From Circinella umbellata (lineage: Eukaryota > Mucoromycota > Mucoromycetes > Mucorales > Lichtheimiaceae), in contig JAIWNF010000014.1 of the NCBI GenBank assembly GCA_025093555.1, positions 744,001 to 808,000 on the forward strand: DNA of 64,000 nt. The letters run 5' to 3'. The notes under the pieces are model-generated. The model searched no databases and was not told the origin of the DNA. It saw nothing but the letters and a program-made list of their open reading frames with translations. A program made the translations under genes and the position numbers. Of the stretch, positions 1,436 through 34,721 are shown in pieces (positions within the stretch are counted from its first letter, which is position 1; each line of letters starts with the position of its first letter).

Positions 1436-4400
1436 CTAATGACCAAATTTACGAGGTGCTATATTACATTCAGATGCCCTTGAACAATTTGCTTGTGAAG
1501 AACAATCAGTAATATTACACCCAGAAGGTGAAGTTGTAATAACTGGAGTCCGTCTTCTATTAACATGACCTTTGCCACCACAACATTTACCATTGACACT
1601 ATTCTTCCCACCACAGCATTGTGAATTTTTCTTGCTATTGCCACTACAACATGTTGATGATGAGTGTGATCTCTTTGATTGTACCGACGTAGTAATCTTA
1701 AGATTTGTTGAGGTATCAATATTCATATGAATGTTGCCACCAACGCCAGGATTATTTGCTGTATTTGCTATTATCGTTCCAGAATGGAAGTCCCGTTTCC
1801 GATACCGATCATCCAAATAGACAACTTTGATAAAGTTTCCAAAATCGCAAACCAAACCAGAGCCATTTAATGGAACTACGTGTCGTATAGTCGAGAACGG
1901 TAACATTTCTGATGCTTCATCATATTCATCCTCGTCATCGTCGTAATGATAATCGTCACGACTGTTTTTGGCGAGTACTTTTCCACTCATATCATGTCGT
2001 TTTTTCCGCTGTGATCGATTATAATTTTCAGAACGGTGAGATGTTGATAGTGAGACATTCTCATACAACATATTCCATAAAGAGTGCAAAATACTAGCAT
2101 TGTTATCGCCATGAGTAGATGCTTCTTGAGCATCTTGTTGAAGTTGTGATTTGCTTTTTTCCAAATTAAATGTTTCAACGGGTATCATTCCTGGCACTTT
2201 TTCTTCATCCTCCTCATTGTCAGATGGATTATAATATTTTAAGGATGCGAACCATGCTTCCCAGTCACCTTGTCTACTTTTGCGTACCCCACCAAGTACC
2301 ATATTATTACAAAAGACAAGCCCTCGTCCAGCCTGTTGATCGATTGAACCAAGGAATGTGGGCTCCAAAGCAATATTGGTTTCACCTCCAAGTTGTTCAA
2401 TGTCCAATAATTCCATCGTCTCGGAAATCGATGTTGCTGCTAATGATGATGTCGGTGTAGGCTGATGTTGTGTCGCACGATATACACGTCTTCTTGGTGA
2501 TGACATACGTCGTGGCCGTTTACCGCTACTATTGTTGTCATCGTTACGTGAACGTGTAGGGTATCGTTTCTGACGATAATCTTTCGTGCATAACGTACAA
2601 CTGACTTCATGTTTTTCGTCCGCTCGTTCAAGACGCCATACATGGACAGATTCGTCACTGGAAGACGATGCAACAAAAAATCCATTTCCAAAACATGTAT
2701 CACATCCCCGACAAAGTCCTGGTCCATTTTCTACTTCACAGTAGCGATCTATGACGACTTGCGTAATAGGTCCACGATGGTCAGATTCAAAATCGTTTGC
2801 AATTGCTGATTCATAAGATCCATTATTGATGGTATCAGGATCTAATGTAGTCATTCGTTGTCGTCGACTTTGTTGTTGTTGTTGTTGTTGTTGAATACTG
2901 AATCCACCATCGTAACGTATATTATTATTACCATCAGGAATTCGACTAAACTTCAACAAAGGGCCACCCACCATTGGTACTTCTTTATTACGCTGTTTAA
3001 TAAATCCTCCAGCAGCTAATGTACATATCGGTTCGCCTGTTTCAAAATTCCATACTTTAACTGCGCCATCACTGGAGCCGGTCACCAATGCACCCATACC
3101 TCCAATAGGAAGCTCCGTTGCTAGTGCAGTGATGGCATGTCCTTGATGTGCATTTAATGTATAGGCGCATGTCCACAATGTATCACTTACATTATCTTTA
3201 CTATTACTATTATTATCCAATCGACGACGCTCCCAGCATTTAACGACACCATCTTTGGACGCTGTAAATATCCATGTAACACCCAGTTTAGGATGAGGTG
3301 CTTTACATTCGACTACATGCAAAATAGTAATATCCCTAGTGTGATCAGATGGAATAGATTGTATGCATTCACCAGAAAGAATGTCCCATTCACGAATTAT
3401 GCCACTCTTGTGCACAGACACTAAATAATTTTGTGATTGATTATCCGTCACGGCTTGTTTTGCAGCTGCTTCAGCAACAATAGGATGACAATATTCGACA
3501 ACTGCGCCAACAAATTGTACTGCAATTACGCGATCAGTAAAACTTCGACGATTTTGTTTCGTAGTTGTATGTTGTTGTGATGGTAATGGTACTGAATCCA
3601 TTGCTGTTGTTGTTGATACATGACACTGTCGACGTTGTCTTAATCCAGATAATGCCAATGGTTGTTGCTCATCTTGCTCTTCAACAATGATAGGGATTTC
3701 TGTTTCAACACGTAATTCACGTAATAGATTACCATTCTCCATATCCCATACACGAATCATACCATCGTCGAATCCAGAAGCAATCCATTTATTACCCTGA
3801 TCAATTTTGACGCAGCGTGCAGACATCATTTGCTTTGTCATTACAGTTGAAATTGTTGCATTTGTCAATGCACGTCGTTTTTTCAACATACCCTTGTTGC
3901 TGTTATTGTTAATATCTTTAGGTTGACGCCAGTAAGTGGGATTTAAATCGCCTTTCATCACACCACTATGGGTTTGTTGAACACGATCCAATCGAGCCAT
4001 CCATTCACCCTCTTGAGTATCCCATAATATGATACGACCATCTTGTCCACAAGAGACAAGCGTTCCATGTTTAGCATTGGCAGCAAGTCGTCGAACATCG
4101 GCCACATGTTTTCCAGACAGTGTTTTGATATCTACTTGTTGAATACTATGCTCCACTTGTTGTTTATTGAATTGTTGCTGTGCAAGGATCGCGCCACGAT
4201 GAATACCATTCTCGTCATAGTCACCCAACTCTTGAGCAATACGTTGTCCAATGGAGCCTGGTATATGAGTTAACATGCGATATAATAAAAATCCACAATA
4301 ATTCATGGTTTGTATCAATAACGACTTTAATAATGGTCGAAGCCAACCTTCACGCCAAGAAGGTGTTAACCAAATGATAATACCGACAAGTACAACACAT

Positions 4401-7103
4401 AGCAAAATGGATGGGATATTGATGCTTAATAACAAAGTTCCACAACGTTTCATTATATCCAACATAAGTTGTCGGAATCGTGATGGTGGACGAGGAAATT
4501 GATGTTTGATAGAAGAATCATCATACATTTTTTGTTGTTGTTGTCGTTGATTATGTTGTTGCTGTGGTTTCGATTTAGACGAATAATATGCTTCCATTTG
4601 AAGTACATGTGTCAATGCATCATCAGCAGTGGATGTATAAACAACAAGATAAGGTGGGTTTACTTGAAGTTGCATTGAATCATGGAATGGGTTAACTGTA
4701 CTCCAAAAACGTGTAGATGTTGATACTAATTCGTTATTCAGTATATCGTCGTTAGATGTAGTTGAATCATTTTGGTTTTGTTGTACAGAAGATGTAATCC
4801 AAGAGGAACTTCGGAATAAAATAAGAATAATAAAACAAAGCTATAAAAAGAAAAGATTGGAAAGATAAAAAAAAAACTCAGTTAATTTTACTATTTTCTT
4901 TGTCATTTTTATAATTTAATAATACCCTAACTAACTTACCACGAGCGCATTTAATGTTCGATGTGTTTTAAATTGTTTGCATTCTGCACACGATTTAGCT
5001 TCAGCACACTCATCAATAGGTTCTTGAATAGGACATAAATCAGGTGCTGTATCAGCATCAATATTATATTTTGATAATTCACGTAATCGTTTGGATGTTT
5101 GACCATCATCAAGATCCGTAAGCTATATATAACAACAAAACAAACAGAAAAGTTTAGTGTAACTATGTATGACACATAATTTTTTTTTCTGTGTCTTTAT
5201 GCTCTGTCTCTCTCTCTCTTTCTCTCCGCAATTTCCCCTCATCCTTCATTCCCATTCTTATTATAGTCTGTTTTTTTTTGTTCGTCCGCAATTATTTCTC
5301 ACTCTCTTTTTAGGTATCACCAAAACTTGGTTTTGTGTAATACAAAAAAAATATATATATATTTTTGCCTCTTCTTTTTTTTTTTTTTTTTGCTCTCTTA
5401 CCTCGACACATTTGACATTAATAGCAAGAACAGCTATAAAAAATGTCATTTCCAGTAAATAACCAATGATCAAAGCAAGTCGTGCAAATAGACAAAAATC
5501 ACTGACGATAGGAATTCGCATAGCATCACCAATAGCAAGAATAATTAATTCTGCAATCAGCGTAGCTGTCATGGGTACTCCGACACTTTCTAAACCTATT
5601 AATATATATATATGTTCGATTGAGATACATGTGTTTAAATATAACTTATGAATATACATGTGCGTGAATGTAATATATGACTGAATTCCCTTTTACCTCT
5701 GCCAATTTTTTCTTGTGAACGCATATCACAACCAGCATTTACCATTGCATTTGTAAGTAGAAATGTATTCTCCAAAGAAGCAACAATAGGAACAATTATT
5801 AAAATATACCAAGGAGTTACCATGTGACGCCAAAGATGAAAATAGTTAAGGATGCCAATGGTTGTGGTGAAACAGGAAAATGCCATAAACACAGAAGCAA
5901 GTCCCAGTCCGAATTGGGACCGAAGGAGATGTGCATTACCAAGGGCGTTTGCTATAATCAAGCTCAACGTTATGAAAACAAATATGCAGACAAATATTTC
6001 AATTGGGAGATAATGAGGAAATAGTTGGAGCTTAAATGTAAGAAAAAAAAATGTATATATAAGAGTAAATGATATTATTATTATGCAAGATTTTTTACTC
6101 TCCCTGATTTTTTTTTAGGATGCATATATATGTATAGAATTATATGAATAAAATAGTTTACCTGGTATTGAACAGTTTGAAGATGCATCATAGATAGCTG
6201 TGTTTGCCAAGCATTGTAATGTTGTTGATCATTATTATCTTGTTTCAAAGAAGAAGGAGAAGATAATTCACCCATTTGTAATTGTTGAGTTGTATGTTTC
6301 CATAATGCATTCCATACACGTTGTGTATAATCAAGATGATTTGTTGTTTGTAATAAAATAGTGAGAATAATGGAATCTGCTTTTAAAAACCGTCCAAATG
6401 GATCCAATGTAGCATTACCAAATACACTATAAGGATGCATTGGTAATCCTGTACTTGTTGATTCATCAAGATAGGGAGATGAATGATGTTGTTGTTGTTG
6501 ATGATGCCATTGATGTATCTTATCAACCCAATGATTTTTATCATCGTGGCGACCATCTACACCAATTATAGGTACATAATTACTGTTGCTACCATCGTTC
6601 CTATTTTTATAATACTCGAGGGGTGAATGAATCATACATTGTCCACGTTTCGTTAAACATATGGTGGCAAGGGACACAGGTTTTCGGTCAACATAAACAA
6701 CAGTTGTCGTTAATATGTCTTGTAAATTTTGTACATGCTCAAGTAATTCATTATTGATTATATTGTCTTTATTGGCGATTCGTATTTGTTGAGCAATCAA
6801 TCGAGGTGTTGTTTGTGTTGAAGTTTTTGTGCCTTTTGTAGTAGGCGTAGTAGTAGTAGTTGTTGTTGTTGTAGTAATATTTTCGAGTCGTATATAAGGT
6901 GAATATTGCCAAAAGTGCGCATCGATCACGTCATGAGGATTAGCATTAAAACCAAAAGAATTCAAAGCATCAAGTATAACAGAATAAGAACACAAGCTAA
7001 CTAGAAAAATTGATAAGAGCAAAAAACAAATTGAACGCGAAGTAAATGCTTTGCCATATCGATAAAAATAGGCAGATACACTGGATTCTGCCTGTAAAGG
7101 CAT
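1436..7103 (-). CDS. SCAP: SCAP orthologue: SREBP cleavage-activating protein (sterol-sensing domain + WD40)
   Basis: SCAP escorts the membrane-bound SREBP transcription factor from ER to Golgi when sterols are low. Five exons read in frame: 6162-7103, 5697-6030, 5402-5595, 4940-5122, 1436-4840, all with GT-AG borders, giving 5058 nt (1685 aa). A first membrane segment lies near residue 25 and is followed by a lumenal loop with a CLTKRGQC stretch resembling the animal lumenal loop. The sterol-sensing domain is at about residues 315-490 (helices around FGLGLASV, LENTFLLTNAM and FCLFARLALI). VELTDL at about 489-494 matches the MELADL COPII signal. Further membrane segments lie near residues 553 and 690 (LLCVVLVGIIIWL). 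WD40 repeats start at about 790 (LVSCGQDGRIILWD) and run to about 1570, with a poly-Gln run inside. The tail is unusually Cys-rich (CCGGK repeats). The protein is longer than human SCAP (1279 aa) because of low-complexity inserts. The first exon begins at the only suitable Met before the first membrane helix. The SSD alignment is convincing; the exact WD40 count is not resolved. Confidence 0.93.
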
Positions 7104-33272: not shown

Positions 33273-33489
33273 TTTTGAATTTGATGATGTCGTGCAAAAA
33301 ATTCTGGTGTTCTGGAATGATGTCGGTTGATCCAAAAATAAAGACGTGTCATGAACTTCGTTTATTTTTGCTTGTCGCTTGGGATTTATCCAATAAAATT
33401 CTTGGCATTTTATTTTTTATAAAAGGGGGGTGATTTTGAAGTGGTCTTTTTGCTTTCATATTCCTATATACATTTTACAGACATTCAGA

Positions 33490-34721
33490 ATGAATATGCA
33501 ATTTCTTTACGAAGATGGACAAGGGCATGTTGTTGATGAGAATGGAGTTGAGCTCATGGATCTTGTTGTTGACGAGGAGCTATTCGCTATTGAAACAATA
33601 AGTTCTCGTTCTCAATTCCTAAAGAATAAACCTCCAGTAAGACCTTCTAATCCTGTAATGCATCCAGTTACCGATGAAAGGACCATTGAAGATGTTGATA
33701 TGGAGTTATGCAATAAGCGGCGCTATACAGTTTATTCTGATGAAGACAAGACTAGATTTTTTCATTTATTTTTCAGCAAATGCTTGAATGCTTCTGCTGC
33801 CGCGAGACAATTAGGTATTCATATCCGAGCAGCACAAAGATGGGTCAAACGTTATTACGATGACCCTGAAAGCATCTTCGAGAAGAAGAAAAAGTCAGGT
33901 CGGCGTCGTATTCTTGGGGAGGAGCATAAGCAGTTTCTTTTGAATTACATTGATGAGAATCCTTCTGCTGTTGTAACTGAAGTAGCAGAAAGTTTAACGC
34001 AAAACTTTGTGGATCTTAATGTTTCTCGTAGCACTATTTATAACTTCATGACAACTGAGTGCAATCTATCTATTAAGCAGGCACAATTCCAGTGGCAGCA
34101 AACTGACTTGGATTTCACAACAAATTGCGTTTTTCTTGATGAATCAGCCTTTCATATCAATTTGAAACGGGGTATGGCTTGGTCAAAAAGGGAACTCCTG
34201 CAATAGTTACAGTACCCACAACAAAAGCGAACGCAACATCGATTTTAGGTGCCATATCTGCCACTGGCTTAATTAATGTTAGTTTGAGAGTTCCAAAGCG
34301 TATTAAAAAGAGAAAGCTTGGACGTGATACTGATGGCTACAGCATAGGAACAGTAACAGGGCATTATTTGAGCTTTCTAAAGGCAACTCTTGATGAAATG
34401 GACAAGTATCCAGAAATGAAGGGGCATTATCTTGTCATGGATAATGCTCCTATTCATAGCTCAACGGATATAGGAAACTATATTCACTCTCGAGGATATC
34501 GCTATGTCTACCTTCCTCCGTATTCTCCTGAACTGAATCCAATTGAACAGTTCTGGTCCGTTGTGAAGAGCAAAGTTTAGCGAAATAAGTTCCTGGATAA
34601 AGAATCTCTTATGACTAGAATTGGTGAGGCTTGTGGTAGTTTATATTTAAGCGACTTCAGAGGTTTCGTTTCTCATTCTGCTAGATGTTTTGATAAGTGC
34701 CTCAACAAAGAAAGATTATAA
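33490..34721 (+). pseudogene. Tc1/mariner transposase, broken by one frameshift and one stop
   Basis: Transposases of this family cut and paste DNA at TA sites. The start ATG at 33490 lies downstream of a TATAAAAG box at about 33417. An N-terminal helix-turn-helix region (ASAAARQLGI, RAAQRWVKRY, about residues 95-120) precedes a DDE_3 catalytic core: first Asp in FLDESAFH, second Asp in VMDNAPIH, Glu in NPIEQFWS with 34 residues between, i.e. DD34E. At about 34190 a run of G is one base short, so the frame shifts from the first ORF (ending 34206) to the second (from about 34180). The second ORF ends at a TAG at 34578-34580, after which the same frame stays open to 34721. The catalytic triad codons are all still present, so decay is recent. 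Expression as a full-length protein is unlikely. Confidence 0.85.

Follow-up and report, generated by a model that had tools for sequence, protein, structure and literature searches.

A predicted SCAP paralogue of Circinella umbellata has no acidic residue at mammalian positions 428 and 443, where its partner copy has acids

D428 and D443 belong to the small number of SCAP positions at which single-residue phenotypes are known in mammals, and their effects are opposite. The D443N, Y298C and L315F changes disrupt the SCAP-Insig interaction and SREBP cleavage becomes sterol-independent (PMC13336778), L315F being a hamster sterol-resistance allele (PMC13336778), while D428A binds Insig constitutively and its transport to the Golgi is blocked (PMC12773782, PMC13336778). 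Both phenotypes, sterol resistance of D443N and failure of D428A to be released from Insig, had been stated in a first-pass annotation of the DNA analyzed here and agree with these sources (PMC13336778 for the former, PMC12773782 and PMC13336778 for the latter). Insig binding is described as requiring a YIYF motif in the sterol-sensing domain (SSD) of SCAP and of HMG-CoA reductase (PMC3564778), and residues Y298, D428 and Q432 have been called highly conserved across species (PMC13336778). In the fungi studied, SCAP control is Insig-independent according to several reviews (PMC8549280, PMC5285346, PMC3894159). Against an Insig-free view count (i) the statement that SCAP-INSIG assembly involves Y298 "in yeast systems" (PMC13336778), and (ii) the action of Insig homologues on HMG-CoA reductase in some yeasts (PMC13412983, PMC5285346). 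In the open-access literature that we searched, no paper on a SCAP of the Mucorales was found. Mutants of Scp1 in fission yeast that correspond to the hamster alleles reportedly exist, and the same search of open-access literature found no paper on them.

In this work, we analyzed a SCAP gene of Circinella umbellata, a species placed by the NCBI taxonomy in the Lichtheimiaceae, Mucorales. The gene, named SCAP-A here, lies on the minus strand (7103-1436) of the window, i.e. the whole stretch of 64,000 nucleotides that was analyzed. The gene model predicts five exons separated by GT..AG introns, with a reading frame open throughout and a product of 1685 aa (Table 1), and the interval 5595-5402 to which the first-pass annotation had drawn attention is exactly its exon 3. 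The spliced product is letter-identical to a deposited protein (P0001, "hypothetical protein BDC45DRAFT_503331 [Circinella umbellata]"), which derives from the same assembly as the window. The Pfam matches to the SSD (PF12349, cut-off 22.3 bits) and to a C-terminal WD40 domain (PF00400, whole protein, cut-off 27 bits) are given with their scores in Table 1, and in the PDB the SSD matches SCAP chains best (E about 1e-17). A motif resembling MELADL, which we take to be the COPII motif of SCAP, follows the last SSD helix as VELTDL, its V-E closing exon 3 and its LTDL opening exon 4. The protein ends in a 72-residue tail (window 1439-1654, minus strand) with 10 Cys and repeated CCGGK-like units; a CCGG tail resembling it is visible in Mucor ambiguus (P0005), and a shorter Cys-containing tail in the second SCAP of the genome, described below. 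Elsewhere in the window, an open frame on the plus strand (33397-34203) matches the homeodomain-like family HTH_32 at 33.9 bits, just over its cut-off of 33.7; homeodomain-type domains of this kind occur in transposases.

Table 1. Predicted exons of SCAP-A and the codons in three human SCAP columns, in window coordinates.
Feature	Position	Strand	Content	Basis
Exon 1	6162..7103	-	N-terminus and luminal loop 1, aa 1-314	Gene model; NPC1_MLD Pfam match aa 103-259
Exon 2	5697..6030	-	First SSD part, aa 315-425; carries Ile339, Ala341, Leu356	Gene model, PDB-chain alignment
Exon 3	5402..5595	-	Final SSD helices, aa 426-490	Gene model; PF12349 match at aa 350-490 (97.8 bits)
Codon GGT, Gly470	5462..5464	-	Human D428 column	Gene model and alignments
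Codon AAT, Asn485	5417..5419	-	Human D443 column	Gene model and alignments
Codon TGT, Cys488	5408..5410	-	Human R446 column	Alignment; position counted from the Asn485 codon
Exon 4	4940..5122	-	Starts LTDL (second part of VELTDL), then cytosolic loop 6	Gene model
Exon 5	1436..4840	-	Remaining membrane part, WD40 domain, Cys-rich tail, stop	WD40 PF00400, 57.7 bits

The residues at the mammalian switch positions were read against the SCAP chain 7etw_B with phmmer, the Asp residues at 428 and 443 being located by counting from the printed ends of the alignment. As the first-pass annotation had proposed, the gap-free alignment puts Gly470 of SCAP-A in the D428 column and Asn485 in the D443 column, and none of our alignments gave SCAP-A an Asp in either column, contrary to its proviso that a better one might restore them. 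Its placement of Ala at Y298 has to be corrected: the gap-free alignment gives Ile339 at Y298 and Ala341 at Y300, and MAFFT agrees. Ala does stand at 298 in the Zychaea orthologue. Positions 298-301 of SCAP-A thus read I-I-A-N, with neither YIYF nor Tyr298; the L315 column is unchanged (Leu356), and R446, a position absent from that annotation, is replaced by Cys488.

Protein searches with the SSD of SCAP-A (20 matches) and with that of the second SCAP, SCAP-B (38 matches), gave a union of 40 proteins, all of which were aligned; these rows are sequences, with species partly repeated (two rows are from Parasitella parasitica and two carry no species name). G428 together with N443 was found in all six members of one clade and in none of the 34 other SCAPs, the two columns having been picked by the first-pass annotation and the clade delimited after the residues were seen. 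The clade holds Circinella umbellata, C. minor, Phascolomyces, Zychaea, Fennellomyces and one of three Dichotomocladium copies. Outside it, position 428 is Asp in 25 proteins and Glu in nine, and position 443 is Asp in 34 of 34; column 446 reads Cys (five) or Tyr (one) within the clade, and Arg (33) or His (one) outside. Support for the clade was SH-aLRT 100 on the 40-row tree and 100/100 in a tree calculated without the 41 columns around the trait, which used 28 of the 40 rows. On the 40-row tree, column 443 changed once, column 446 three times and column 428 four times, D/E exchanges included. In the same quickly computed tree, Phycomyces copy 1 and Radiomyces group with the clade (SH-aLRT 96, with a long-branch warning); this grouping is lacking in the trait-free tree, where an AU test does not reject it (p 0.329). 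At the human 422 column, six residues before 428, all six clade members have Arg (Arg464 in SCAP-A), and Lys, Gln, Ala and others are found elsewhere.

This distribution bears on the trivial explanation, a sequencing, assembly or splicing artefact at the end of exon 3; a sequencing or splicing error there had been named by the first-pass annotation itself as fatal to its reading. Nothing in favor of an artefact was seen. Five exon 3 codons lie beyond Asn485, the deposited protein is identical (it comes from the same assembly), and the same residues occur in five other species, which refutes an artefact and makes it next to inconceivable. As read from the gene model and its relatives, G428 and N443 are neither sequencing nor splicing errors. 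The relatives of SCAP-A in the five other species are annotated proteins, two of which (P0004 and P0020) are annotated as partial or short. The deposited model of P0004, from C. minor, appears wrong over the first half of its SSD, probably through a wrong intron call; it was kept in all counts, and its residue at 315 is unreliable.

The genome of C. umbellata encodes a second predicted SCAP. A six-frame search for SSDs through the genome (50.8 Mb, 210 contigs) returned five loci, namely SCAP-A, SCAP-B (contig C185), two HMG-CoA reductase genes (C46:273089 and C101:106229) and NPC1 (C150). Searched in six frames with the SCAP-A SSD, the genome gave the two SCAPs, with NPC1 and the reductases trailing weakly; a third SCAP was not found in these six-frame searches, whose counts are lower bounds. 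SCAP-B (C185:132873-137393) has five exons and 1361 aa, is open over its full length and is letter-identical, as a model, to the deposited P0021. Like SCAP-A, it combines an SSD with a WD40 domain. Its intron phases are those of SCAP-A, exon 3 has equal length in both genes, and the two SSDs are identical at 90 of 179 positions. At the switch positions, SCAP-B has Glu428, Asp443 and Arg446, with I-V-S-S at 298-301, so the substitutions concern one of two SCAPs and not the whole fungus. A copy with the same E/D/R set is also present in Zychaea and Fennellomyces, and the B-type copies of Dichotomocladium are one E/D/R and one E/D/H; the protein-search matches included none of B type from Phascolomyces or C. 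minor. As both kinds of copy are found in C. umbellata, Zychaea, Fennellomyces and Dichotomocladium, the duplication is older than the split of these genera. On this comparison of predicted proteins, the acids are lost in one SCAP copy only, and SCAP-A is a divergent paralogue rather than the sole SCAP of C. umbellata. In Dichotomocladium, three SCAP copies were seen (P0024, P0026 and P0038), and the branch of P0026, which has His at 446, is very long, at 1.42-1.56 changes per column.

A gene duplicated in this way might simply have been relaxed, and we therefore weighed the possibility that SCAP-A is a redundant back-up whose acids drifted away after the duplication without a functional change that matters. 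Between C. umbellata and Zychaea, SSD identity is 145/180 for SCAP-A and 162/179 for SCAP-B; SCAP-A is the less conserved copy in five of five segments, likewise in the comparison with Dichotomocladium, and the Dichotomocladium member of the clade has a long branch (0.83). Lower conservation is also what mere relaxation would give. Nevertheless, drift does not readily explain why the same two replacement residues stand in six of six members, nor the retention around them. In the SSD, 179 columns are filled in 30 or more of the 34 rows outside the clade. Seventeen of these columns show no variation in those rows, and only one of the 17, D443, is exchanged for one and the same other residue in every clade member. 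Outside the clade, six columns of the SSD contain nothing but acidic residues; the clade lost 428 and 443 among these and kept the other four, one of the four reading Ile in the suspect deposited model of C. minor. The COPII motif residues E448, L449, D451 and L452 are likewise retained in six of six members, and SCAP-A is open over 1685 codons, with annotated relatives in five other species (the partial or short P0004 and P0020 among them). Altogether, we consider relaxed drift a doubtful explanation; from the aligned columns, the joint loss of the acids in this clade is not general decay.

The first-pass annotation had proposed that the classical Insig contact may play no part in how this fungus controls sterols. 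On such a reading, the lineage lacks the contact, and both positions were for that reason free to change. The missing contact is itself probably real. YIYF stands in neither SCAP-A nor SCAP-B. Compared by eye with the human reductase, both HMG-CoA reductases appear to lack it as well, having TFAS and TFIS in its place. Neither PF07281 (at two thresholds) nor human INSIG2 matched anything in the genome; the intended positive control, three mycobacterial genomes that each encode a protein related to the mycobacterial Insig-like protein of known structure, also gave none of three over the cut-off and one weak match (E 0.04). Human INSIG2 and the mycobacterial protein were further aligned and used together as a query; the named proteins among the best 120 of its 1510 protein matches are vertebrate, so that this search is uninformative on fungi. 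However, the two acids do not follow the contact. Among the 34 SCAP rows readable at position 298, 32 are from Mucorales (including two without species name that the tree places among Mucor); Tyr298 is found in none of the 32, and both acids are kept in 28 of them, hence the loss of YIYF is wider than the loss of the acids. Tyr298 occurs only in the rows of Blyttiomyces and Zopfochytrium, together with L315, D428, D443 and R446; we take both genera to be chytrids. Each of the 34 SCAPs outside the clade has both acids, including those 28 Mucorales rows and SCAP-B, and NPC1 of the same genome has D, D and R in the columns of 428, 443 and 446, so this set is not only an Insig contact. Both HMG-CoA reductases have Asp at 428 and Lys at 443. 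Acids that are kept in SCAPs devoid of Tyr298, and in NPC1, are held for a reason other than the YIYF contact. In these alignments, the acids do not go with that contact, and the proposal that they became free to change through its absence is improbable to us; the other part of the claim probably stands, in that neither SCAP-A nor SCAP-B is likely to need an animal-type Insig contact, residues 428 and 443 not being the reason.

The Mucorales sequences aligned here do not fit the conservation of Y298, D428 and Q432 across species stated in PMC13336778. Position 315 could be read in 38 SCAPs, 22 of which have Phe, 14 Leu, one Val and one Arg. The natural Phe315 is found in the part of the tree with Mucor, Rhizopus and their allies, where R. 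arrhizus has Leu. Two residues that confer sterol resistance in mammals, N443 and F315 (PMC13336778), are by this alignment natural in Mucorales, in different SCAPs. We also compared 10 positions that PMC12773782 names in mammals as lying at the sterol of the Scap-Insig interface or close to it: only I402 and F417 match mammals in all six clade members, and since most of the differences are shared with other Mucorales, no conclusion on sterol binding was drawn from them.

Regarding the rest of the pathway, the genome encodes SREBP-type candidate partners for SCAP, as judged from sequence features. Two bHLH genes (C191:44356 and C131:245554) have the SREBP-type Tyr in the basic region (ERRYRNNIND), and the best PDB matches of both are SREBP-1A, HMS1 and TYE7. 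Reading frames with hydrophobic stretches were seen by eye downstream of both genes. Pfam did not find the SREBP C-terminal family in these frames, HLH alone being recognised, and the one further match was marginal and odd (Spin-Ssty, 25.7 bits, cut-off 25). DUF2014, the SREBP C-terminal domain, had no match in the genome, in agreement with its origin in the Ascomycota as described in PMC3894159. An S2P-like stretch was detected with PF02163 (31.7 bits, cut-off 27.2), the match crossing four stops, probably an intron. Both SREBP-type genes carry a long acidic insert in the bHLH loop, and it can be observed that the genome has two SREBP-type genes beside its two SCAPs.

Taken together, these results favor, with moderate confidence, a reading in which SCAP-A is a paralogue that is conserved and probably still works as an escort, its sterol switch having been rewired by the joint loss of the acids. 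SCAP-A would still bind an SREBP through its WD40 domain and would still leave the ER by means of its VELTDL motif. The acids may take part in a conformational change that sterols induce in SCAP itself, one shared with NPC1-like SSDs, and a switch without the acidic pair would then respond to sterols in a manner unlike that of SCAP-B. The most likely direction would be weak or no sterol retention of SCAP-A and a high basal output, beside a sterol-controlled SCAP-B. However, D428A and D443N act oppositely in mammals, so the direction is not readable from the two residues, and a balanced pair of changes is also possible.

The opposite direction would have SCAP-A locked in the ER in the manner of D428A, as a retention partner or decoy for one SREBP and not as an escort. 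Position 428 is uncharged in six of six clade members, and the mammalian D428A protein is constitutively Insig-bound and does not reach the Golgi (PMC12773782). But that lock, as there described, consists of constitutive Insig binding, a contact that is unlikely here, and the COPII motif conserved in SCAP-A is one that a pure retention protein would not need; we hold this explanation to be very improbable.

Returning to the rewired escort, it is tempting to speculate further that the SREBP system is duplicated, its two sensors being set differently. SCAP-B would keep the ancestral acidic switch, while in SCAP-A the locking loss (D428) and the unlocking losses (D443 and R446) would have been fixed together, mutually balancing, giving an acid-free and Insig-free SCAP that might be blind to sterols or tuned to another lipid, and possibly paired with one of the SREBPs. 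This extended scenario is offered tentatively, and we think it rather unlikely in its entirety.

The main finding from these predictions is a conserved, divergent SCAP paralogue that lacks both acids, whose partner copy retains them. A clade without the acids beside an acid-bearing paralogue in the same cell amounts to a natural experiment on these residues, with the animal-type Insig contact not in play, and the paralogue pair offers a test of Insig-free sterol sensing. The acid loss and the natural Phe315 suggest that SCAP of the Mucorales follows rules that the mammalian mutants do not predict.

Compared with the known systems, SCAP-A resembles mammalian SCAP (chains 7etw_B and 6m49_B) in that the SSD aligns over its full length, with the last two helices gap-free, in the E448-L-x-D-L motif and in the WD40 C-terminus. 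In contrast to the mammalian protein, it has no YIYF or Y298 and carries Gly for D428, Asn for D443 and Cys for R446. The Scp1 proteins of fission yeast and Cryptococcus are SCAPs without Insig retention, and the same is expected of SCAP-A (PMC8549280, PMC5285346, PMC3894159); whereas the table in PMC8549280 gives one SCAP for each of these two fungi, C. umbellata has two. The laboratory D443N mutant of hamster SCAP shares Asn443 with SCAP-A (PMC13336778). The hamster allele, however, is a single change in a SCAP under Insig control, whereas the Asn of SCAP-A is fixed in a clade together with G428 and the loss of R446, in a protein without YIYF.
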